Shown in pieces: positions 2,087 to 51,486 of a stretch of DNA of 64,000 nucleotides. The notes under the pieces are model-generated. The model saw only the letters and a program-made list of their open reading frames with translations. It was not told the origin of the DNA and did not search any database. This DNA comes from Selenomonas sp. oral taxon 892 str. F0426. GTDB taxonomy: Bacteria; Bacillota; Negativicutes; Selenomonadales; Selenomonadaceae. The DNA lies in NCBI RefSeq assembly GCF_000468035.1, contig NZ_KI260523.1:248001-312000 (forward strand). Direction: 5' to 3'. The translations under genes and the position numbers were made by a program. Position 1 is the first letter of the stretch; every line of letters starts with the position of its first letter.

Positions 2087-3022
2087 TTATAAAATTTGGG
2101 GCGGCTGATTCTTTTTGAGAAAGTCCGCCAATTCTTCTGACGACGGATAGGACATTTGCGTTCCCTTTCGCGTAACACTTAGGGCTGCAAACGCAGAGGC
2201 CTTCTGCATTGCAGCAAGAACATCAGAGTCCTGGACATAGGTGCTGGCAAAACAGCCAATAAACGCATCCCCCGCACCGGAGGTATCGACAGCATTCACA
2301 CGGTACGCCTCAACATATTTTTTTTCTTTCTCGGTCATCCAGAGTGCACCACGCCCCCCCAATGTGACGATCACATTTTTGAGACCTCGCGCGATCAGCG
2401 ATGCTGCAGCATGCTCCACATCCTCCCGTGTTTCTGTCGGCATCCCAGTAAGAATAGCAAGCTCCGTCTCATTCGGTACAAAGAAGTCACACTCACAAAC
2501 CTTGTTTATGTCAAGGCTTTTCGTCGCAGGTGCCGGATTCAAAAGAACTGGAATACGGTTCTTTTTTCCAAAAGAGATGGCATGATAAACCGTCTCCAGG
2601 GGGATTTCCAATTGAAGAATGATCATCTTGCATTTTTTTAGGTCTTCCTCTGCTGCATCAATATCTGCTGGCAGAAGCTTATTGTTTGCGCCCTTGATGA
2701 TCAGGATGCTATTTTGTCCGCTCTCATCCACAAAGATTGGCGCAACTCCACTGGACATGCCAGGAACCTTTTGAACATAGGTTGTGTCAATGCCATATTT
2801 TTTGAAGTTGGTGATGGTGTTGTCAGCAAAAATATCGCTGCCAACCTTCGTCACCATCAGTACATCGATTCCACAAACGGCCGCAGCGACCGCCTGATTC
2901 GCCCCTTTTCCTCCGCAGCCTATCGTAAAGTCAGGAGCCTCAAGCGTTTCTCCGAGAATCGGCATGCGCGTAATATAGGAGGTCAAATCCACCATATTCG
3001 AACCAATTACTGCAATTTTCAT
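2087..3022 (-). CDS. rbsK: Ribokinase
   Basis: PfkB-family kinase of 311 residues that phosphorylates ribose (or deoxyribose) to the 5-phosphate in the cytoplasm. Visible motifs are the substrate-binding GCGGKGANQA near residue 40 and the catalytic DTSGAGDAF near residue 250, with the anion hole and base Asp. The start has AGGGGG 7 nt upstream. It lies 14 bp after deoC and probably shares its promoter. Pairing with deoC suggests supply of deoxyribose 5-phosphate for DeoC, or ribose salvage; the LacI/RbsD group next door supports pentose use. Confidence 0.93.
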   Translation of the reverse strand: MKIAVIGSNMVDLTSYITRMPILGETLEAPDFTIGCGGKGANQAVAAAVCGIDVLMVTKVGSDIFADNTITNFKKYGIDTTYVQKVPGMSSGVAPIFVDESGQNSILIIKGANNKLLPADIDAAEEDLKKCKMIILQLEIPLETVYHAISFGKKNRIPVLLNPAPATKSLDINKVCECDFFVPNETELAILTGMPTETREDVEHAAASLIARGLKNVIVTLGGRGALWMTEKEKKYVEAYRVNAVDTSGAGDAFIGCFASTYVQDSDVLAAMQKASAFAALSVTRKGTQMSYPSSEELADFLKKNQPPQIL

Positions 3023-3036
3023 ATCGCGTCCCCCTC

Positions 3037-3681
3037 TTATCCCGCAACGATCTTAACGCCGCTGCTCGTACCAAGCCGTGTAGCTCCCGCAGCGACCATT
3101 TCCTCGGCATCGACACGGCTGCGAACCCCTCCGGATGCCTTGACCCCCATTTTCTCTCCCACCGTTTCGCGCATCAATCGAACATCATCCGCGACGGCTC
3201 CGCCTGTAGAAAATCCAGTCGATGTCTTCACGAAATCGGCGCCCGCCTCCTGGGCCAAGCGACAAGCAATGCGCTTTTCTTCATCGGTGAGAAGACACGT
3301 CTCGATAATCACCTTTGTAAGCGCTTTCCCTTTTGCTGCATCGACAACACTTTTGATATCAGCACGTACGTAGTCGTAATCCTGATCTTTCAAACGCCCG
3401 ACAGGAATCACCATGTCGACTTCTTCTGCACCGTCTTCAATTGCCGTTTTCGCCTCGAAAGCCTTTACTTCAGAGGGGGTTGCTCCCTGAGGGAAGCCGA
3501 TTACAGTACACGTTTTTACACCAGTTCCCTTTAGTTTTTCTGCTGCATAAGAAACCCAGATGGGACTAACACAAACCGACGCAAACTGATATTCTTTTGC
3601 CTCTTTCAGGAGTTTATCAAGATCTGCTTTCTGTGCCTCTGTTTTGAGTAGGGTATGGTCAATCATTTTTGCAAAATCCAT
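3037..3681 (-). CDS. deoC: Deoxyribose-phosphate aldolase
   Basis: Class I aldolase of 214 residues that splits 2-deoxyribose 5-phosphate into glyceraldehyde 3-phosphate and acetaldehyde. The Schiff-base lysine lies in [21 protein letters not shown] and the C-terminal KASGGVRS phosphate-binding region are also typical. The start is the ATG at 3681, with AGGAGGG 5 nt upstream; the longer in-frame start at 3714 has no ribosome binding site. It is the first gene of a deoC-rbsK pair with its own promoter. Confidence 0.95.
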
Positions 3682-3721
3682 ACGATCCCTCCTAGAAATA
3701 TTAAGAATTTTCAATGATGAA

Positions 3722-3750
3722 ATTTTAGCATTCTTTTTGTAGATTGTAAA
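3722..3750 (-). promoter_or_regulatory. Promoter of deoC-rbsK
   Basis: TTTACA (3745-3750), 17-nt spacer, TAAAAT (3722-3727) on the minus strand, about 40 bp upstream of the deoC start. The sequence TTTCATCATTGAAA just downstream of the -10 (3709-3722) is a short inverted repeat that could be an operator. Confidence 0.7.
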
Positions 3751-3805
3751 GGCTCTAATATTTTGCCAATGTATCTTTCGCTTCTCTTATTGAATTTCTA
3801 AATAA

Positions 3806-3844
3806 ATACAGCAGAACGGCCGGGATCAGCCAATTCTGCTGTAT
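3806..3844 (-). terminator. Rho-independent terminator of glmS
   Basis: An 11-bp perfect stem (ATACAGCAGAA / TTCTGCTGTAT) with an inner GGC/GCC pairing, followed on the minus strand by TTTATTTA. It lies 16 bp past the glmS stop. Confidence 0.8.
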
Positions 3845-3859
3845 GTCATTTATTCAGCT

Positions 3860-5689
3860 TTACTCTACGGTAACGGATTTCGCAAGGTTGCGCGGCTTGT
3901 CTACATCGCAGCCACGTGTGATTGCTGCATAGTAGGCGAGCAGCTGCAGTGGAATCACTGAGAGAATCGGCATGATGAACTCATCCGATGCAGGTACATG
4001 CATAACGTGATCGACATATTTCTCGAGTTCCATATCCCCCTCTGCCGCAATACCGATGACAACAGCATCACGCGCCTTTACCTCTTTGATGTTGGAGAGT
4101 GTCTTTTCATAGACGCTGCGCTGTGTCGCGAGTGCAATCACAGGCACTCCCTCAACAATCAGGGCAAGTGTTCCGTGCTTCAGCTCACCTGCTGCATATG
4201 CTTCAGCATGAATATAGGAGATCTCCTTGAGCTTGAGTGAGCCCTCAAGGGACACGGCATAGTCGAGACCGCGTCCAATGTAGAAGACATCCTCGTTGAA
4301 GCCATATCGCCTAGCGAAGGTCTTGATCGGATCGACGTCGGACAGAATCTCCGAGATCTGTGACGGAATCTCCTGCAGCTGCATCACAAGCTCTGCCGTA
4401 CGCTCCTGTGCAATCGCCCCTTTGATCTCTGCCATGTAGAGTGCAAGCATGAAGAAGAGGACAAGCTGCGTCGTATACGCCTTGGTCGAAGCAACGGCGA
4501 TCTCAGGCCCCGCCCACGTATAGACAACCTGATCCGCTTCACGTGCAATGGAGGAGCCGACCACATTCGTGATCGCAAGCGTCTTTGCTCCACGGCGCTT
4601 CGACTCCTTGAGCGCGGCAAGCGTATCGCTCGTCTCACCAGACTGGGAAACGACAATGAGGAGCGTATGCTCATCGACAATCGGGTCACGGTAACGGAAC
4701 TCCGAGGCAACATCCACCTCAACGAGAACGCGTGCCATTTTCTCGATGTAATACTTGCCCACAAGACCTGCATGATACGCCGTTCCGCAGGCAACGATAT
4801 AGATCTTGTTGAACGCGTTCAAATAGTCCGCATCCCAAGCAAGTTCTTCGAAGGAAACCGCCTTCTTGTCTGCCGTGACGCGCTGACTCATCGTATCGCG
4901 TACCGCCTTCGGCTGCTCGTGGATTTCCTTGAGCATAAAATGCTCATATCCGCCCTTCTCCGCCGCCTCAGCGTTCCACGTAACCTCAAACACTTTCTTC
5001 GGCACAGGAGCCCCCAGATGGTTCGTCACCTCGACTCCATCTTTACGGACGAGAGCAACTTCTCCATCTCCAAGAATATACGTACGGCGTGTACGAGAAA
5101 TAATCGCTGGAATATCGGAGGCAATGAAGTTCTCCCCCTCACCAAGCCCAATGATGAGCGGATTGTCCTGCTTCGTACAGATGAGCATGTCAGGATGCTT
5201 GCGGCTCATAAATGCGAGCGCATAGGATCCCTCGATCCGCTCTAAAACCGCGCGTACAGCAGCAACAAAATCTCCTGTATAGACCTCCTCTATGAGGTGA
5301 ACAACGACTTCCGTATCCGTTTCGGATTTGAATACATGCCCCTTTGCGACGAGTTCTTCCTTCAGTGAAAGATAGTTCTCGATGATGCCGTTGTGTACGA
5401 TGGCAAAGTCGCCGTGGCAATCCGTATGGGGGTGTGAGTTGACATCAGACGGACGCCCATGGGTTGCCCAGCGTGTATGACCGATCCCAAGGCTTCCGAC
5501 AGGCATATTCCCCTTGATCTTTTCGCGCAGCGCTGCAAGACGACCAACGCTCTTTTCAACGCGGATGTTCTCACCATTGTAGACAGCAATTCCCGCCGAG
5601 TCATACCCGCGATACTCGAGCTTCGAAAGACCATCCAACAGAAACTCTGCTGCCTGACGATCTCCAACGTAACCAACAATTCCACACAT
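3860..5689 (-). CDS. glmS: Glutamine--fructose-6-phosphate aminotransferase (isomerizing)
   Basis: A protein of 609 residues that makes glucosamine 6-phosphate from fructose 6-phosphate and glutamine, the first step toward UDP-GlcNAc for peptidoglycan and LPS. It begins MCGIVGYVG, so Cys2 becomes the N-terminal nucleophile of the glutaminase domain (about residues 2-220). Two SIS domains follow, and the C-terminus DKPRNLAKSVTVE is typical. The start at 5689 has AGGAGGT 7 nt upstream. Longer open frames upstream are noncoding because they run through the glmS ribozyme. Expression is probably controlled by that ribozyme. Confidence 0.98.
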   Translation of the reverse strand: MCGIVGYVGDRQAAEFLLDGLSKLEYRGYDSAGIAVYNGENIRVEKSVGRLAALREKIKGNMPVGSLGIGHTRWATHGRPSDVNSHPHTDCHGDFAIVHNGIIENYLSLKEELVAKGHVFKSETDTEVVVHLIEEVYTGDFVAAVRAVLERIEGSYALAFMSRKHPDMLICTKQDNPLIIGLGEGENFIASDIPAIISRTRRTYILGDGEVALVRKDGVEVTNHLGAPVPKKVFEVTWNAEAAEKGGYEHFMLKEIHEQPKAVRDTMSQRVTADKKAVSFEELAWDADYLNAFNKIYIVACGTAYHAGLVGKYYIEKMARVLVEVDVASEFRYRDPIVDEHTLLIVVSQSGETSDTLAALKESKRRGAKTLAITNVVGSSIAREADQVVYTWAGPEIAVASTKAYTTQLVLFFMLALYMAEIKGAIAQERTAELVMQLQEIPSQISEILSDVDPIKTFARRYGFNEDVFYIGRGLDYAVSLEGSLKLKEISYIHAEAYAAGELKHGTLALIVEGVPVIALATQRSVYEKTLSNIKEVKARDAVVIGIAAEGDMELEKYVDHVMHVPASDEFIMPILSVIPLQLLAYYAAITRGCDVDKPRNLAKSVTVE

Positions 5690-5723
5690 AAAAAATACCT
5701 CCTGACAGAAAAGATTTCTCTCA

Positions 5724-5876
5724 GGGATTTCGCTCCATCTGCAGCTTTGTCCACAGGATCGCCCCTGTGCTTTTACCACAGACTCTCGACAGAGCGTGCC
5801 GGAAGGCATCCGCTGACGGCTCGACAACCTTCTCCTCGTCCTCTGAAATACCCCATTCTATTTCAGAGCCAGCGCT
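5724..5876 (-). ncRNA. glmS ribozyme (glucosamine 6-phosphate riboswitch)
   Basis: The minus-strand leader of glmS carries the conserved glmS ribozyme elements in order. These are AGCGC with the cleavage site 5' of the G (between 5876 and 5875); a P1 hairpin TCTGAAAT/ATTTCAGA; GACGAGGAGAAGGTTGTCGA; GCGGATGCCTTCCGG; and a CACAGG/CCTGTG hairpin followed by GACAAAG. The known ribozyme cleaves its own mRNA when glucosamine 6-phosphate binds, giving feedback on GlmS. The 3' boundary is approximate. Confidence 0.93.
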
Positions 5877-5942
5877 AAGAAACAATTTCTTTTCAGTATA
5901 TGAAATCCCCATATACCGCCATATTCGACGATATACAGGGAC

Positions 5943-5971
5943 ATTCTATCCGATATCATACAAGAAGTCAA
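5943..5971 (-). promoter_or_regulatory. Promoter of glmS
   Basis: TTGACT (5966-5971), 17-nt spacer, TAGAAT (5943-5948) on the minus strand. Transcription would start about 60 nt before the ribozyme cleavage site. Confidence 0.8.
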
Positions 5972-6000
5972 TCCGTCTGAAGGGAGTCTCATGTGCCAAT

Positions 6001-6034
6001 AAAAAACTCAGCCAACTCTATTGAATCGACTGAG
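6001..6034 (-). terminator. Terminator of the tRNA-Tyr/tRNA-Met unit
   Basis: Minus-strand stem CTCAGTC/GGCTGAG followed directly by TTTTTT, 13 bp after the CCA end of tRNA-Met. Confidence 0.75.
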
Positions 6035-6047
6035 CTCTATTTTTATA

Positions 6048-6124
6048 TGGTGGCGGCACAGAGATTTGAACTCCGGACACTGCGGGTATGAACCGCATGC
6101 TCTAGCCAACTGAGCTATGCCGCC
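6048..6124 (-). tRNA. tRNA-Met (CAT)
   Basis: A 77-nt tRNA with encoded CCA. The acceptor pair is GGCGGCA/TGCCGCC, the anticodon stem TGCGG/CCGCA encloses loop TTCATAC, and the T loop is GTTCAAATC. The 5' G paired in the acceptor stem and the overall sequence fit an elongator tRNA-Met. A lysidine-modified tRNA-Ile2 has the same CAT anticodon and cannot be fully excluded by eye. Confidence 0.93.
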
Positions 6125-6126
6125 AG

Positions 6127-6212
6127 TGGTGGGCAGGGATGGATTCGAACCATCGTAATCCGAAGATGACAGATTTACAGTCTGTTGCCTTTAACCACTC
6201 GGCCACCTACCC
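6127..6212 (-). tRNA. tRNA-Tyr (GTA)
   Basis: An 86-nt class II tRNA with long variable arm and encoded CCA. The acceptor stem is GGGTAGG/CCTGCCC. The anticodon stem ACAGA/TCTGT encloses CTGTAAA, giving GTA. It lies just upstream of tRNA-Met in the same transcript. Confidence 0.95.
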
Positions 6213-6225
6213 ATAAGCCTCGACA

Positions 6226-6255
6226 AGTATATGCGATAATACGCTGTCTTGTCAA
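6226..6255 (-). promoter_or_regulatory. Promoter of the tRNA unit
   Basis: TTGACA (6250-6255), 18-nt spacer, TATACT (6226-6231) on the minus strand, between the lysS stop and tRNA-Tyr. The tRNAs can therefore be made independently of lysS. Confidence 0.8.
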
Positions 6256-6268
6256 GGCATTTCTAAAA

Positions 6269-7783
6269 TTATTCCGCCAGTGGCTTCATCGTCGGGAAGA
6301 GCAGCACATCACGAATAGAAGGACTGTCTGTCAGCAGCATGACGAGGCGGTCAATGCCAATACCGAGGCCACCTGTCGGCGGAAGGCCATATTCGAGTGC
6401 TGTGATAAAGTCACGATCCATGACATGCGCCTCGGCATCTCCCGCTTCTCTCTGCGCAAGCTGATCCATGAATCGCTGCTCCTGATCGATCGGATCATTC
6501 AGCTCTGTAAATCCGTTTGCGAGCTCACGCCCATAGACGAAGAACTCAAAGCGATCCGTGATGCGCGGGTCATCCGCATTTCGCTTAGCAAGCGGAGAAA
6601 TCTCCGTAGGATGTCCTGTGATAAAGGTCGGCTGCATGAGTCCATCCTCAACCTTTTCCTCAAAAGCCGCATTGAGGATTCCGCCAATACCATGACGTTC
6701 CTCAAAGGGAACACCAATCTCACGAGCCATCGCACGTGCCTCATCGACGGTCTGACAGGAGAGGAAATCCCTCCCCGTTTCCTCACGCACAGCATCATTC
6801 ATGCTGATCGTACGGACACTCCCCAGGTCGATCTCAACCCCCTGATAGGTAATCTTTGTTGTACCTAGTACATCCTCGGCAGCTTGCCGAACAATTCCCT
6901 CCGTGATTTCCATGAGGTCACGATGATCGGCAAATGCCTGATAGATTTCAATGGACGTAAACTCCGGATTGTGACGCACATCCATGCCCTCATTACGGAA
7001 GATCCGCCCCATCTCATAGACGCGGTCAAGTCCACCGACAATCAGGCGCTTTAGACTAAGCTCCGTTGCAATACGGAGGTAGAGGTCGATGTCAAGGGCA
7101 TTGTGGTGCGTGATAAAAGGACGCGCTGCAGCACCGCCTGCAAGTGTTGAGAGTACGGGGGTCTCCACCTCGAGGAAGTCCCGCGTGTCGAGATAACGGC
7201 GGATGGACTGGATGATCTTCGTCCGCTTGCGGAATACCTCACGCACCTCATGGTTGACCATGAGGTCGAGATAGCGCTGACGATAGCGCGTATCGACATC
7301 CTTAAGTCCATGGAACTTCTCAGGCAGAGGACGCAGCGATTTGGAGAGGAGGTCGAAATCCTCAACACGTACGGTGACCTCTCCACGCCGCGTCTTAAAT
7401 ACAACACCACGAATGCCGATGATATCGCCGATGTCAAGTCTCTTGAACTCTTCCTTGTATTTCTGCTCGCCTAGAACATCCATCTTGAAATAGACCTGTA
7501 TATTGCCTGTACGGTCATTCAATGTGGAGAAGGATGCTTTTCCGTGTCCGCGTATTGCCATCAATCGACCGGCAATACGAACCTCCTCCTCTCCTTCCTC
7601 ATCTTCGGCAAGATAGTCGTATTTCTCTTTCAGGGCAGAGGCATAGTCTGTGACCTCAAAGCGATGTCCGAACGGAGGAACGCCCATGGCTCGAAACGCA
7701 TCCATCTTTTCACGCCGGACACGCATCATCTCACTCAGATCCTGCTCCGGCGCATTTGCTGTGTTTTCTCTTTCTTCAGCCAT
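6269..7783 (-). CDS. lysS: Lysine--tRNA ligase, class II
   Basis: Class II lysyl-tRNA synthetase of 504 residues. The N-terminal OB-fold anticodon-binding domain covers about residues 65-170 ([18 protein letters not shown]). The catalytic domain shows motif 2 ([19 protein letters not shown]) and motif 3 ([12 protein letters not shown]). The acidic N-terminus before the OB fold is ordinary for the family. It follows greA by 9 bp, a common Firmicutes pairing, and closes a long minus-strand gene run. Confidence 0.97.
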
Positions 7784-44836: not shown

Positions 44837-47206
44837 TTAGAGCTCGATGCGCACGCCGAGATTCGCCTTCCATTTCTCGCTGATGACATCTGCGCCCGCC
44901 GTACGACTGAATTCACCGTAAAGATCCGCTCTGCCGACGCGCCGTGTAAAGCCCAGTCCATACTCAAAATAGCTGTCCCACGCCGTGTAGCTGCGGTCAA
45001 TGGAGGTCGATCCATACTGCGCCCGCAGGTGGAGATCGCCCTTGAACTCGCGCAGATAGCCGAGTTTCAGATAGACCGTGCCGTGCTCGTCCTCGCAGCC
45101 AATCTGTGTGCCAATGCGCCCGACGAGTGTGGTGACGGCATCGTTTGCGATGTGAGCCCCCGGCAAAGAACCTGCACGCATCGTGTAGTCTGCCGCGCCG
45201 ATGCGTCCATAGTTCAGCTCGACCTGTGGTGTCCAGTAGAAATGCGGTGTGATAGCTATGCGGTGTCCGTATTCGACGGAGATGTTCCAGCCGTTCACGC
45301 CGTAGCCGCCCGTGTATGCCGTACCGTCAAAGACGGCGGTTGCATCGTTCGTCATGCGTCCGTATTTCACGATCGTGTCGAGGTAGTCGCCGCGTTTGCC
45401 CATGTAGCTGCCGTACACACCGAAAAAGTGTGCACGATGGCTGCCGTCGAGGTCGCTGTTCCGCGCCGTGCCGCTCGATGCTGAGGCTGCAACCCCCATG
45501 AAGAGCGTGCCTCCATGGAGCGAAGCAGCACGGTCAATACCGACCTGTACGCCGTTGTAGCGTCCCGTCGTGGGGTAACTGCCAAATTCGTTCCTGCCGC
45601 CGTAACCGCGCACCCATGCACCGGATTCCCCACCCGCACGCAGTCCGCCTATGCGCCGATGCAGGTCGTTGTTCTCGCCGCGCCATGCACTGAGCTGGGC
45701 GAGTGCCATATCCATAAGAAGGTCGGCGGTGCGCAGCGCGGGACCTGGGGTTGGCGGCTGCGGCTCTGGCTGCGGCTGCGGCTGTGGCTGCGGCTCTGGC
45801 TGTGGCTGCGGCTGCGGCTGTGGTTGCGGCTCTGGCTGCGGTTGCGGCTGTGGCTGTGGCTGCGGCTGTGGTTGTGGCTGCGGCTGCGGCTGCGGCTGTG
45901 GCTCTGGCTGCGGTTGTGGCTGCGGCTGCGGCTGTGGCTGTGGCTGCGGCTGTGGCTGCGGTTGTGGCTGCGGCTGTGGCTCTGGCTGCGGCTGTGGCTG
46001 CGGCTGCGGTTGTGGCTGCGGCTGCGGTTGTGGCTGCGGCTGTGGTTGTGGCGTTGGAGTAATATCCGAAATCGTAATCTTGGTGACACGCACGATCTTT
46101 CTGCCGCTCTCCGTTGCCTCAACAAGTGTCGGCTTTACCTTGAAGTCCTTTTGCAGCAAACCCGCCGCAACAGCTTTTCGCGTAATATACTCGGATGCCG
46201 CTGCTGTGTCGCTCGTATTTTCAGAGTCCAGTACGGGAACGCCGCCCGCCGCTACAGCCTCAATCACATAGTTCGTCTTGTTCACCGCATCGTTCATCTT
46301 CGGATCGAAAGCGACTTGCAGTTTGTACTGATTGCTCGCTCCTGTAACACCGTTCAGCGTGATCTTATCTGCCTTGTTCTCCGTAAGGTTCGTGGAGATG
46401 CGGAAGGTCGCACCATTCAGCGCCGCACGCGTATTGTCAAAGGTCAGCGTTCGCTCTCCGACAGCGGTTATACGCGCCTCATTCGGTGCAGCAAACGCCA
46501 TGTCGATCACGCCGCCGTTCGCCGAGAGATGGAGTCCACGCGGCTTGTTGTCCTGATCCTCTGTCCATGTGCCGTTCTTATAACCAAAATCCTGCGAATA
46601 GGGATCGGGATTAAATAGCGTATAGGCATCCCCCTTCGGATACCACGTCGCCCCATCCGAGAGTTCGAGACGTACGCCGCCGCGATTATGCAACGGAATC
46701 GGATTGTTCCCCGCGTCTTTTACCTCCGCAATCCCACCCACAAAGTAGGACTCCTCGCCCTTCAGATAGAGATTGACATAGCCTCCCGTCATATATGAAT
46801 GATTATTGTATTCATCCAATCTGTCCACGAGAATATCGCCGCGTAGCTGCACCTTGCTCGTTCTGTCAGGATTGATCGTCAGAATCCCCGACCAATCCAT
46901 TGTTCCACCCCCGCGGCTGAGTGCTGTGAGGATGTTGCTCGAGTTTGTAATCTTGATTGTGCTCCCCTGTAAGATTACTGTAGGGTTTGTATGCTGTGGC
47001 GTATCATCGTCATTGACCCCCTCCATGGTGATCGTTCCATCCGCAATATCCACATCATCCGTCACCGTTACATCAGCTGTATAAGTTTGGGATGTGGTGA
47101 TCGGTGCGGCGAGTGCCGTACTTGGCACAAACGCTGTGCCAAGTGTGAGTGCAAGGGCAATCTGTGCGCTAAGGCGCATCTGCTTCTTTTCTACATTCGA
47201 TTTCAT
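44837..47206 (-). CDS. Classical autotransporter with Pro-Gln repeat stalk
   Basis: A protein of 789 residues. A signal peptide (IALALTLGTAFVPSTALAA) precedes a beta-helix-like passenger at about residues 35-380. A Pro-Gln/Pro-Glu dipeptide repeat covers about residues 385-484, and a C-terminal autotransporter barrel runs from about 527 (SGAWVRGYGGRNEFG) to the end (KWKANLGVRIEL). The repeat probably forms a stiff extended stalk between barrel and passenger. TAGGAG sits 7 nt before the ATG. It lies 10 bp after the GT8 gene and 36 bp before tpsA. The function is unknown; surface adhesion is the usual role. Confidence 0.9.
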   Translation of the reverse strand: MKSNVEKKQMRLSAQIALALTLGTAFVPSTALAAPITTSQTYTADVTVTDDVDIADGTITMEGVNDDDTPQHTNPTVILQGSTIKITNSSNILTALSRGGGTMDWSGILTINPDRTSKVQLRGDILVDRLDEYNNHSYMTGGYVNLYLKGEESYFVGGIAEVKDAGNNPIPLHNRGGVRLELSDGATWYPKGDAYTLFNPDPYSQDFGYKNGTWTEDQDNKPRGLHLSANGGVIDMAFAAPNEARITAVGERTLTFDNTRAALNGATFRISTNLTENKADKITLNGVTGASNQYKLQVAFDPKMNDAVNKTNYVIEAVAAGGVPVLDSENTSDTAAASEYITRKAVAAGLLQKDFKVKPTLVEATESGRKIVRVTKITISDITPTPQPQPQPQPQPQPQPQPQPQPQPEPQPQPQPQPQPQPQPQPQPQPQPQPEPQPQPQPQPQPQPQPQPQPQPQPEPQPQPQPQPQPEPQPQPQPQPEPQPPTPGPALRTADLLMDMALAQLSAWRGENNDLHRRIGGLRAGGESGAWVRGYGGRNEFGSYPTTGRYNGVQVGIDRAASLHGGTLFMGVAASASSGTARNSDLDGSHRAHFFGVYGSYMGKRGDYLDTIVKYGRMTNDATAVFDGTAYTGGYGVNGWNISVEYGHRIAITPHFYWTPQVELNYGRIGAADYTMRAGSLPGAHIANDAVTTLVGRIGTQIGCEDEHGTVYLKLGYLREFKGDLHLRAQYGSTSIDRSYTAWDSYFEYGLGFTRRVGRADLYGEFSRTAGADVISEKWKANLGVRIEL
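45755..46051 (-). repeat. Hexanucleotide-based Pro-Gln repeat tract
   Basis: About 300 bp built from 6-bp units (GGCTGC, GGCTGT, GGTTGT, with GGCTCT at the Glu codons on the plus strand) encoding the Pro-Gln/Pro-Glu stalk of the autotransporter. Gain or loss of units keeps the reading frame. Confidence 0.95.
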
Positions 47207-47216
47207 TTCAATTCTC

Positions 47217-48170
47217 CTATTCCGATTGGTTCATTTTGCTTGTCTGTTCCAAATAGAACTGCATGAGTCGCTCCGCCGCCGCATGAAAGTACTGCGCTGC
47301 CGCGCGGTAATCCTCCGCCTGCTCGGCGTGGCAGCCCGCGAGATAGGCAATGCGTGTCTCCCACGGCTCAGATGGCGTGAGGTCGCTCCACGGCGATCTG
47401 CGCGCGACCTGCCAATACGGCTCGCGCACGCGCGGGTCTGCATAGCGAATCCACGGCTTCCCCTCGTTGAGAAAATGCCAGATTGTATGTCGCGCAGAAA
47501 AGTCCACATCCCACGGCGCAAAGGCATCCATCATCTGTACATAGTTCCGCCCGAGCAGCAGGAAATCCCCGTCCAGTACATGGTTGAGTGCGTCCTGCTC
47601 GAGCAGCGGAAATAATGCGCCGTGCTCCTCCCATGCCGTAAGCGTGCGTTCCGTGAGGTTCTGTGCGCGCCAACGTACGAGGTCGATGAGCATAACGCCC
47701 GCATTGAAATATGCGGATCCCTTCCTGCCGATCCGCAACGCCTTCCGCTGCGCCTCTCCCTCGGGTGCGGCAGCGATGGATGCGCCTGCGAGATCGAGCG
47801 ACCAGAGTGCTCCCATACTGCCGACGCAGAGTGTATCGGCATCGAGGTAGAGGATGCGGTCAAGGCTATGCGGAACGAGTTCCGGCATGAGAATCCGCGT
47901 GAACACGCTGCGGTTGATCCGCTCGCGCGGGATGCCGCTCGGAAAGGGAATCGCGTCCAACGCTGCGCGCGCGTCATAGATGTGGACATCCGTCCACGGA
48001 AATGCAGCGAGGAAGGCTTCCAAACGTTTGCGGTCGGCGTCCTCAATCCCGTCACAGACGAGATGAAATCCGACTTTCTCCCCCTCACTCTGCATGGCAG
48101 CGGATGTCATGGCGATGCCCGCGTACTTCACATAACGTGCGTCAACACCGAATGCAATCTCGCAGCGCAT
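47217..48170 (-). CDS. Glycosyltransferase family 8 protein
   Basis: A cytoplasmic glycosyltransferase of 317 residues. The nucleotide-sugar region IAFGVDARYVKYAGIAMTS and the DXD motif RILYLDADTLCVGSM are typical of GT8; AYFNAGVMLIDLVRWRAQNL and LLEQDALNHVLDGDFLLL complete the fold. A C-terminal helical tail of about 60 residues follows. GT8 enzymes transfer glucose or galactose, often in LPS synthesis. Here the gene leads an operon of two surface adhesins, so protein glycosylation is a possible alternative (inference). Start is ATG at 48170; GTG at 48182 is the alternative. Confidence 0.88.
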   Translation of the reverse strand: MRCEIAFGVDARYVKYAGIAMTSAAMQSEGEKVGFHLVCDGIEDADRKRLEAFLAAFPWTDVHIYDARAALDAIPFPSGIPRERINRSVFTRILMPELVPHSLDRILYLDADTLCVGSMGALWSLDLAGASIAAAPEGEAQRKALRIGRKGSAYFNAGVMLIDLVRWRAQNLTERTLTAWEEHGALFPLLEQDALNHVLDGDFLLLGRNYVQMMDAFAPWDVDFSARHTIWHFLNEGKPWIRYADPRVREPYWQVARRSPWSDLTPSEPWETRIAYLAGCHAEQAEDYRAAAQYFHAAAERLMQFYLEQTSKMNQSE

Positions 48171-48200
48171 GATTTTACCCACTCTCTAAAATAAAAGGAC

Positions 48201-48265: not shown

Positions 48266-48323
48266 TAAAAGTTGTCATAAATGCCGAAAATATGATATGA
48301 ACGCAAATTATTTCAAATTGTAC

Positions 48324-48352
48324 TTGCGCATTTCAATGCTTTTTCATAGAAT
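48324..48352 (+). promoter_or_regulatory. Promoter of the LytTR regulator operon
   Basis: TTGCGC (48324-48329), 17-nt spacer, TAGAAT (48347-48352) on the plus strand, 30 bp before the start codon. Confidence 0.55.
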
Positions 48353-48382: not shown

Positions 48383-49111
48383 ATGAAAATTGCTGTACTG
48401 GACGATAACGCAGATGATTTGCACGCGCTCTGTGCGATGATTGATATCGTTTGCGCGGAGCATATGCCGCGCCCCATGATCCGTGCGTTCACGGACGACA
48501 GGAAATTTCTTGCACACATGTCCTCCGCACGCGCCGACATTGTCTTTCTCGACATCTATCTGAAGGAGCGCACGGGCATCCGCACGGCACAGATTCTTCG
48601 ATCGTTCAATACAAACTGTGCAATCATCTTTGTGACAACGAGCCGCGAGCACGCCGTCGAGGCGTTCGATGTGACGGCGTCGCACTATCTCATCAAGCCC
48701 GTGACGGAGGAAGGTGTCCGCGAGGCGCTCGCGCGTACGCCATTTTTCCGGAAGGAACGCCCGACGATTGCGCTTACCATCGACTATACGGAGCAACGTG
48801 TACCGATTGAACAGATTCGCTATATCGATGCGAGCGGACGCCGCTGCTGCTTCCATCTGGCAGACGGCACGATACTCGCACCCTATATGACGATTGCACG
48901 CGCACGCGAACTCTTGGAACATCTGCCAATGTTTCTGTCCTGCCACCGCAGTCTGCTGATCAACATGGACTATATACACCAGCTGACGCCCGAGGGAATC
49001 CTCCTCATGGACGGGACTCTCCTCCCCATCGCAACACGCCGTACAAGCGAGGTCAGTCAGGCATACCGCGCCTATATGCTTCGAAAGATGCGCGCAGGGT
49101 TTACCCCTTGA
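48383..49111 (+). CDS. LytTR family response regulator
   Basis: A protein of 242 residues. The N-terminal receiver domain (about 1-120) has the acidic pair in VLDDN, the phospho-acceptor Asp in ADIVFLDIYLKE, and Lys in HYLIKPVTEEG. The C-terminal LytTR DNA-binding domain (about 135-235) includes IRYIDASGRRCCFHLADG and FLSCHRSLLINMDYI. AGGAGG lies 9 nt upstream. Regulators of this type often control secreted virulence or adhesion factors. It is divergent from the adhesin operon with a shared intergenic region, so that operon is its likely target (inference). Confidence 0.95.
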   Translation: MKIAVLDDNADDLHALCAMIDIVCAEHMPRPMIRAFTDDRKFLAHMSSARADIVFLDIYLKERTGIRTAQILRSFNTNCAIIFVTTSREHAVEAFDVTASHYLIKPVTEEGVREALARTPFFRKERPTIALTIDYTEQRVPIEQIRYIDASGRRCCFHLADGTILAPYMTIARARELLEHLPMFLSCHRSLLINMDYIHQLTPEGILLMDGTLLPIATRRTSEVSQAYRAYMLRKMRAGFTP

Positions 49112-49161: not shown

Positions 49162-50568
49162 ATGAATCTGCCGCTGACGTTCGATCTCTTGCAGCACCCG
49201 CTTGCCGTCCCGATGGTGACGCTGTTCTATACCATTGTCCACGTTCTGCCCGGAAATCTGATACGTCTCTATCTCTTTCGCCGCTATCTGCGCTTTTCCC
49301 CACAGCTGATTATTGCGGGGCTGCTCGTACTCATCGGCATCGAGACCATGATTCAGATCGAGGCGGTAACGGTCTTTTCGCGACGCATCGCCTTTCCGTT
49401 TCTCTTCTTTATCTTCTTCTATCTGATCGCAGTCACGCGCGTGCCGATGGCCAAACAGATCTGCATCATCGCTCCGCTCGGGCTCCTCTGGTTCGGGATG
49501 CAGACGGTGGTCTATGCGATCGAGGATGCCTATCCCGTATTTGAAATTCCATTTCTGCTCTCAGGCCTGCTCACTCTGGCAAACCTGCTCATCATCATTC
49601 CGTTCTGCCTGTACTATGGGCGTACAATCGCCGATCCCCTGCTTGCAGACGATTCCTTCGATGCCGTCTGGAAGCCACTCGCATGGCTGGGGACGCTCAT
49701 CCTCGTGCTTACCATTCTCCTTTCCCCATTCAACGAGCTGCGAACAAACACGGCGCTCTTCGTCCGTCTGAGTGCGGCGATCGGCGCATTCTGCTGCATC
49801 GGGCTTGCCCTCTACGCCATGAACGAACGCCTGCGTCAGCGTGCACTGCGCGAGCAGCTTGCACGCGAGGCGGAGATGGCAGAGATTACACGCCAGAATG
49901 CGGCGCAGATGGAGGAGAACGAACGCACAACACGCACCTTTCGCACGCAGTTCACAGCGCTGCTTGAAAAGGTAGAGGAAAACCTCGCGGACGGGGACTA
50001 TACGGGCATCGAACATCTGATGCGCGATGCTGCCGCTCAGATCAACACGAATTATGCACCCGTCTGTGGAAATGAAACTGTAAACATCCTCATCGGCTAC
50101 TGGCAGCCCGTCTTCGATCGTCTGGGGGCACGCACAGAGTACCGCATTGAGATCGGCACGGAGAACCCCATAGACCCACTCGATCTGACGGCAATCCTAG
50201 GCAATCTCCTCCGTAACGCTGCCGAGGCGATGGAGCGACTTTCCCCGACCGCAGAGCGCATCCTCCGTCTCGCCCTCGTACATCAGGCAGATATGTTGTT
50301 TCTAACAATGGACAACAGTTTTGACGGTACACTGCGCTACGATGCGGACGGCAATCTGCTCTCGTCCAAGCGCGGCTGTATCGAGCACGGTATCGGCATG
50401 GAGAGCATTCGTGCGAGCCTTGCACGCTATGACGGAGCGATGGAAGTTGCGGTGGAGGACGGTCTCTTCTCGGTGGATATGACGCTGACTACATCAGTCG
50501 ATTCATATGGAGATGTCCCGTCTGTGGAGCGCAGCGGGCAGTACGGGGAGGTCGACGGTATATCATGA
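49162..50568 (+). CDS. GHKL sensor kinase-like membrane protein lacking the phosphoacceptor His
   Basis: A protein of 468 residues. About six or seven membrane helices span residues 12-217. A coiled linker and a dimerisation helix (about 255-290) follow, then a HATPase_c_5 domain with N box ILGNLLRNAAEAM and G2 box CIEHGIGMESIRASL. In the dimerisation helix, where AgrC-like kinases carry RHDxxNH, this protein reads RTFRTQFTALLEKVEENL, so the phospho-accepting His is missing. ATP-binding motifs look intact. The ribosome binding site is TAGGAG. The stop overlaps the next start (ATGA). It probably acts with the following protein (inference). Confidence 0.9.
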   Translation: MNLPLTFDLLQHPLAVPMVTLFYTIVHVLPGNLIRLYLFRRYLRFSPQLIIAGLLVLIGIETMIQIEAVTVFSRRIAFPFLFFIFFYLIAVTRVPMAKQICIIAPLGLLWFGMQTVVYAIEDAYPVFEIPFLLSGLLTLANLLIIIPFCLYYGRTIADPLLADDSFDAVWKPLAWLGTLILVLTILLSPFNELRTNTALFVRLSAAIGAFCCIGLALYAMNERLRQRALREQLAREAEMAEITRQNAAQMEENERTTRTFRTQFTALLEKVEENLADGDYTGIEHLMRDAAAQINTNYAPVCGNETVNILIGYWQPVFDRLGARTEYRIEIGTENPIDPLDLTAILGNLLRNAAEAMERLSPTAERILRLALVHQADMLFLTMDNSFDGTLRYDADGNLLSSKRGCIEHGIGMESIRASLARYDGAMEVAVEDGLFSVDMTLTTSVDSYGDVPSVERSGQYGEVDGIS

Positions 50569-51431
50569 GCGATTTTGAAATCCGGCTGCTGCATACACTT
50601 GTATGTGCGCCCCCCTTCGATTTTCTGATTTTCTATATCTTTCGTACACGTCTGCGCTTTCGGCGATCATACACCATCATCGGCTATCTCCTCCTGATCA
50701 CTTTGACGCTTGCCATACAGATGTCATCCGCATTGGATATGTCGCTGACCGCACTCCTCTGCCGCCCACTCGCCCTCCTCTATATGACAGCGGTGATCCG
50801 CGATCATCCGCTGCGCATTCTTTCAATCGCGCTGCTCGTCTATCCACTTCTCCTCCTTGCATCGACGCTTGGGACGACGATGGAGTTTTTCTTTGGCGAG
50901 GGGCTGCCTCATGGGCTGTGGAAATGTCTGCTGATCCCGATGTTCTTCCTCATTGTCTTGCCTACTGCACTGCATACGATTCACCATCTGCTCACGCCCA
51001 TCCTCCGTGTGGATGACAGGAGGCTCTGGCTCTTCCTCTGCGGTTATGAGCTGATCCTCATTGCACTCGCGATTGCCGCTGATCCGTCGAGTTCCTCCGT
51101 ACGTCCGACCATCATCGCTGCACGCTTGCTGCTCCCGTTCGCCCTCGTTCAGTATCTTCGTGTATCCGATCTCCTCACCCGCTATACGGAGGAAGGAAAT
51201 GCCCTTCTCCAACGGCAGATGCATGAGAGGATGATCCGCAAAGCCGAAGAGGCGCACTATCATACGATGCTGGAGATCTGGCGCAGATCGCGTCGCATGC
51301 GTCACGATCTCAGTCAGCATGCGACGATGATTGCACAGCTCGCGCGCGAGGGCAGACGGGAACGCCTTGCGGCATATCTGCACAATATTGCACAGCAGTT
51401 TGCTGCGATGCCTGGAGAGATAAAGAAGTAA
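50565..51431 (+). CDS. Membrane sensor protein with His box but no ATPase domain
   Basis: A protein of 288 residues. About six membrane helices cover residues 15-205. A dimerisation helix follows with MRHDLSQHATMIAQLAREG, which matches the His box of GHKL/LytTR-type kinases, and continues RRERLAAYLHNIAQQF. The protein ends 7 residues after AAMP, where the ATPase domain would normally begin. A perfect terminator lies 3 bp past the stop, so no ATPase sequence follows. It complements the upstream protein, which has an ATPase but no His. Either a split kinase or a decayed paralogue. Confidence 0.85.
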   Translation: MSDFEIRLLHTLVCAPPFDFLIFYIFRTRLRFRRSYTIIGYLLLITLTLAIQMSSALDMSLTALLCRPLALLYMTAVIRDHPLRILSIALLVYPLLLLASTLGTTMEFFFGEGLPHGLWKCLLIPMFFLIVLPTALHTIHHLLTPILRVDDRRLWLFLCGYELILIALAIAADPSSSSVRPTIIAARLLLPFALVQYLRVSDLLTRYTEEGNALLQRQMHERMIRKAEEAHYHTMLEIWRRSRRMRHDLSQHATMIAQLAREGRRERLAAYLHNIAQQFAAMPGEIKK

Positions 51432-51434
51432 TTT

Positions 51435-51486
51435 AAAAAAGTTAAACCCGAAAGCGATTTCTTGCGCTTTCGGGTTTAACTTTTTT
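51435..51486. terminator. Bidirectional terminator between the sensor operon and recD2
   Basis: A perfect 22-bp stem (arms AAAAAAGTTAAACCCGAAAG plus CG and its inverse) with an 8-nt loop. Each strand ends in TTTTTT, so it can stop both the plus-strand sensor operon and the minus-strand recD2 operon. Confidence 0.92.

Follow-up and report, generated by a model that had tools for sequence, protein, structure and literature searches.

A co-encoded pair of complementary half-kinases in Selenomonas as a probable split membrane histidine kinase

A three-gene operon with two incomplete kinases

The window, by which we mean the whole stretch of 64,000 nucleotides that was analysed, contains an operon in which the gene for a LytTR response regulator is followed by the genes for two kinase-like membrane proteins, designated HK1 and HK2. 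The features of the locus are as follows.

44837..47206, minus strand: autotransporter, divergent (Pfam Autotransporter, 3.5e-28); probable target gene
47217..48182, minus strand: GT8 glycosyltransferase, divergent (Pfam Glyco_transf_8, 3.8e-36); probable target gene
48274..48303, plus strand: candidate LytTR operator, two direct repeats resembling GTCATRAACG with a period of 20 bp
48383..49111, plus strand: response regulator, receiver plus LytTR DNA-binding domain (Pfam Response_reg, 1.4e-13; LytTR, 6.8e-10)
49162..50568, plus strand: HK1, 468 aa; polytopic membrane domain, DHp hairpin without the phospho-acceptor His, intact GHKL ATPase
50565..51431, plus strand: HK2, 288 aa; polytopic membrane domain and DHp hairpin with MRHDLSQH (H247), no ATPase domain
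51435..51486, plus strand: terminator-like inverted repeat, AAAAAAGTTAAACCCGAAAGCG ... CGCTTTCGGGTTTAACTTTTTT, as read in the sequence

HK1 matches Pfam HATPase_c_5 at 7.5e-16 over residues 338-442 and retains the ATP-binding residues of the N and G2 boxes (N348, N352, N385, G410 and G412). When HK1 is aligned with 56 relatives, the column that holds a near-invariant His in the family is occupied by T262, such that HK1 reads R261-T262-Q263-F264 where the kinase family has R-H-D-L, and its DHp contains no H[DEN]. Measured against the AgrC-like GHKL (PF14501) kinases, HK1 has the GHKL ATPase and lacks the phospho-acceptor His of the DHp. Its AlphaFold model (pLDDT 85.5) places six membrane helices ahead of a long helix, a DHp hairpin (helices 196-276 and 280-294) and an alpha/beta CA domain (305-443), the ATPase domain. 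The AgrC kinase module (6e52) is the best fold match, and AgrC is also the best profile match.

HK2 presents the opposite arrangement. A Pfam search with HK2 returned no ATPase match, and its AlphaFold model (pLDDT 87.4) runs from six membrane helices through a long helix to a DHp hairpin, with the final helices spanning 181-262 and 265-281 and the chain ending after DHp helix 2. H247 and D248 are invariant in a 40-row alignment that includes canonical kinases, so that HK2 carries the RHDxxxH box of the AgrC-like kinases in its DHp and lacks their GHKL ATPase. The original prediction had described HK1 as having N and G2 boxes without an H-box His, and HK2 as having a canonical MRHDLSQH without an ATPase. 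The Pfam searches, alignments and AlphaFold models agree with both descriptions, and the coordinates and reading frames were correct.

The end of HK1 and the start of HK2 share ATGA in the window, and the overlap between the two genes is 4-8 nt among orthologues, which is consistent with coupled translation. The HK2 stop codon lies 3 nt ahead of the terminator-like repeat, leaving no space for a remnant of an ATPase domain. A search of the genome with PF14501 (GHKL_5) gives one match, HK1, and a search with PF04397 gives one match, the window regulator, which is therefore the sole LytTR protein of the genome. Given this single GHKL_5 ATPase and single LytTR regulator, the three genes form a closed 1:1:1 set; the idea that a further GHKL_5-family protein encoded elsewhere might serve either half as a partner was considered and rejected.

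Conservation and recurrence of the split

Close homologues of HK1 and HK2 co-occur in the same 9 of 189 Selenomonadaceae genomes, with the HK2 profile run against all 189 and both proteins against 151. At high similarity, both genes are present or neither is (9 of 9 genomes). Of these Selenomonas/Centipeda-group genomes, seven are among the 14 of the window's own genus and two come from another genus; the holders include Selenomonas sp. FOBRC6, Centipeda periodontii, S. infelix and S. massiliensis. The His is missing from all nine HK1 orthologues, which retain N348, N352, G410 and G412 and carry variously T, A or M at the lost-His position. All nine HK2 orthologues keep RHDL..H, with RHD invariant, and terminate at the same place. 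Thus, the anatomy of a split kinase, in which the His and the ATPase reside on two co-encoded proteins that each lack the other part, is found in every orthologous pair. This bears out the expectation of the original prediction that the two losses would be conserved side by side in related genomes. Comparison of the window with its two nearest relatives gives dN/dS values of 0.13-0.14 for HK1 and 0.14-0.15 for HK2, and other orthologue pairs give 0.11-0.33. Judged by these ratios, both genes are under purifying selection.

The complementary arrangement is not confined to these orthologues. In many Selenomonadaceae genomes, a profile of the His-only proteins picks out short frames that adjoin long GHKL ones. 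Sorting of the retrieved loci by a custom DHp-plus-ATPase profile yields 39 complementary pairs in 8 Selenomonadaceae genera, each an ATPase-less RHD protein beside a His-less GHKL kinase; in two of the 39 (L180 and L189) the ATPase end of the kinase runs off the contig. The His-less kinases keep their N and G2 boxes, with one G2 residue deviating in L192, and the lost His is replaced by a variety of sequences (RTQF, RQSF, RKNL, QENL and others). No ATPase-less RHD protein was found beside a His-retaining kinase among the classified Selenomonadaceae loci, a judgement that covers neither L190, whose partner lies off the contig, nor L178, whose partner is in fragments. Among clostridial and other relatives (L091-L166), 74 of the 75 evaluable loci encode single kinases with both parts, the exception being L150. 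A class-wide profile search for the short proteins gave no short frames outside Selenomonadaceae among the matches listed.

Intermediates are also present. A His-less kinase adjoins a full kinase in L072, L077 and L197, and in L199 and L056 it stands beside an RHD protein with a degenerate or partial ATPase. At the other extreme, the His partner is reduced to a single membrane helix plus DHp in two genera (L192-L195 and L191), with lengths of 103-118 aa in L192, L194 and L195; the partner in L205 has two membrane helices. When the diverse short partners are aligned, R-H-D is the main shared motif, and five columns, no more, are invariant. Gene order varies by group, with the short gene first in L177-L188.

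A tree was built from 84 proteins that carry the ATPase, after masking of the H box. A single clade of split kinases is rejected (p-AU 9e-7). The split label requires 6 changes on the tree, or at least 5 going by starred branches, although the exact number of origins is uncertain, the tree having been built quickly with some long rows and its groups having been named only once the loci were classified. As read from this tree, the data require that the split arose independently at least five times in Selenomonadaceae. The complementary pair, described originally at one locus, is thus found to have evolved repeatedly within the family. We think it fairly probable that Selenomonadaceae have repeatedly, at least five times, made tandem LytTR-type kinases into obligate heteromers of an ATPase chain and a His chain, down to a minimal His subunit of about 100 aa, and that these constitute a convergent class of split membrane kinases.

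Some tandem loci have other arrangements. Two tandem GHKL pairs (L200 and L201, in genomes G002 and G062) have no canonical RHD in either member, with N and G2 boxes intact in one, and both members of the L196 pair carry RHD, so complementarity is not a universal rule for tandem pairs. At L206 (genome G026, 2417-7342, minus strand), both members of a tandem GHKL-type pair are His-less and share one operon with an 881-aa hybrid kinase. A stand-alone HPt protein replacing the His in G026 was considered and rejected, since the HPt is the C-terminal domain of this hybrid kinase. At L203 (genome G130, 2502-4722, plus strand), the frame of the ATPase chain extends about 500 nt into the His-only gene as a same-strand overlap.

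How the two chains may work together

In the usual description histidine kinases are homodimers, an arrangement that obscures the job of each subunit. In the split pairs the two jobs have been allotted to separate chains several times, with intermediates preserved, and the pairs offer a natural test of phosphorylation in trans and of the evolution of an obligate heterodimer from a homodimer. The partners of about 100 aa are, moreover, ready-made parts for engineered split sensors. The ATPase and the His are likewise on separate kinases in the three-protein Rv0600c/Rv0601c/TcrA system of Mycobacterium tuberculosis, in which Rv0600c and Rv0601c cooperate with TcrA, although their kinase family differs from that of HK1 and HK2. 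AgrC of Staphylococcus aureus (6e52, 4bxi) resembles the window proteins in having a membrane domain, a DHp and a GHKL ATPase that feed a LytTR regulator, but it holds the His and the ATPase in a single chain. No earlier description of a split kinase in Selenomonas was found in the literature searched.

The shared membrane-plus-DHp architecture, the gene overlap and the reciprocal losses are best explained by a heteromer. It is likely, as the original prediction had proposed, that HK1 and HK2 each supply half of a single obligate membrane histidine kinase, with HK1 phosphorylating H247 and the pair feeding the LytTR regulator. The two proteins would pair through the DHp helices that both have kept. 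The HK1 ATPase domain would act in trans on H247 of HK2, from which the co-transcribed regulator would then receive the phosphate. The pair probably originated by tandem duplication, followed by loss of the His from one copy and then of the ATPase from the other. The repeated independent splitting suggests that the two chains must pair to signal.

The FasB/FasC/FasA system of group A Streptococcus is the closest studied system and provides an experimental precedent for the heterodimeric type (PMC12675982). There, as in the window, two adjacent six-TM AgrC-like kinase proteins are encoded with one LytTR/ComE-like regulator, which FasB and FasC feed. According to that 2025 report, FasB and FasC heterodimerise and form no homodimers in two-hybrid assays; H246 of FasC is required, whereas both the kinase domain of FasC and the membrane domains of one of the two chains can be dispensed with (PMC12675982). 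Unlike HK2, FasC still carries a (pseudo)kinase domain, whereas the ATPase of HK2 and the His of HK1 are wholly gone, and the available portion of that report does not describe repeated splitting across a family for FasBC (PMC12675982).

A different, improbable arrangement has HK1 and HK2 each homodimeric, with the HK2 dimer serving as a separate substrate protein for phosphorylation by the HK1 dimer, in the style of CheA3 and CheA4 of Rhodobacter sphaeroides. Those kinases, which also carry the ATPase and the phospho-accepting His on separate proteins, are inactive alone and active on mixing, and they show that a kinase divided in two can function (PMC3591291). With a full DHp hairpin in both window proteins, homodimers are possible, and phosphorylation of HK2 dimers by HK1 dimers fits the same sequence data. 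The overlapping genes and common membrane-plus-DHp architecture nonetheless favour 1:1 pairing, as does the heterodimer without homodimers seen for FasB/FasC, a pair of the same kinase type (PMC12675982). CheA3 and CheA4 also differ from the window pair in that they belong to the cytoplasmic chemotaxis kinases, contain P1 and P5 domains and bear the His on P1 rather than on a DHp, and CheA3, unlike either window chain, has no dimerisation domain (PMC3591291). No Hpt or CheW domain was matched by Pfam in HK1 or HK2, and neither protein shows the CheA-type organisation of a His on a P1/HPt domain with a CheW-like P5 domain. Hik36/Hik43 of Synechocystis have been termed a split histidine kinase, with interacting parts that feed one regulator, but they are CheA-like, are encoded at distant loci and have no shared membrane sensor fold (PMC7656254).

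It is much less probable still that HK2 is a regulatory pseudokinase partner and that phosphate from HK1 goes elsewhere, for example to the His of another protein or to an HPt domain. The pair in G026, His-less in both chains and in the same operon as an HPt-bearing hybrid kinase, could be read in this way. Against such a role for HK2, RHD is the most conserved portion of the short partners, and the window genome has no other GHKL_5 ATPase. Finally, although HK1 and HK2 each lack one essential part, a decaying duplicate pair, which the original prediction had named as its alternative, or an assembly error is scarcely credible given that the stop and the losses are shared by 9 genomes from two genera (identity about 70-89%), that dN/dS is about 0.13 between the window and its nearest relatives, and that the split arose repeatedly and independently. 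A stop shared by all nine orthologues is also not a sequencing error, and the co-occurring losses and purifying selection dispose of the suggestion that the stop or the H-box change is specific to this strain.

Returning to the heteromeric kinase, the AND gate of the original prediction is possible for the window pair, because selection acts on both membrane domains in the window clade. The His partners with one membrane helix in two genera indicate that not every such kinase needs a second sensor input, and they speak against AND gating as a general rule.

Upstream site and divergent genes

A -35/-10 pair lies at 48324-48352, about 20 bp downstream of the candidate operator repeats. The repeats are conserved between species: both are present upstream of four orthologues (L020, L023, L024 and L025), and the second is also conserved in L022. 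The regulator would be expected to bind at 48274..48303. No copy of the repeat was found elsewhere in the window genome at two or fewer mismatches, and a wider regulon was rejected on that ground. At the orthologous loci (L020-L027), divergent GT8 and/or large autotransporter-like genes lie 5' of the cassette and the 3' flank varies. The regulator probably acts on its own promoter and on the glycosyltransferase and autotransporter genes that diverge from the cassette, which would amount to local control of surface protein genes together with autoregulation. Within the autotransporter, a long PQ/EPQ repeat linker (window positions 45650-46130) is open in several frames.
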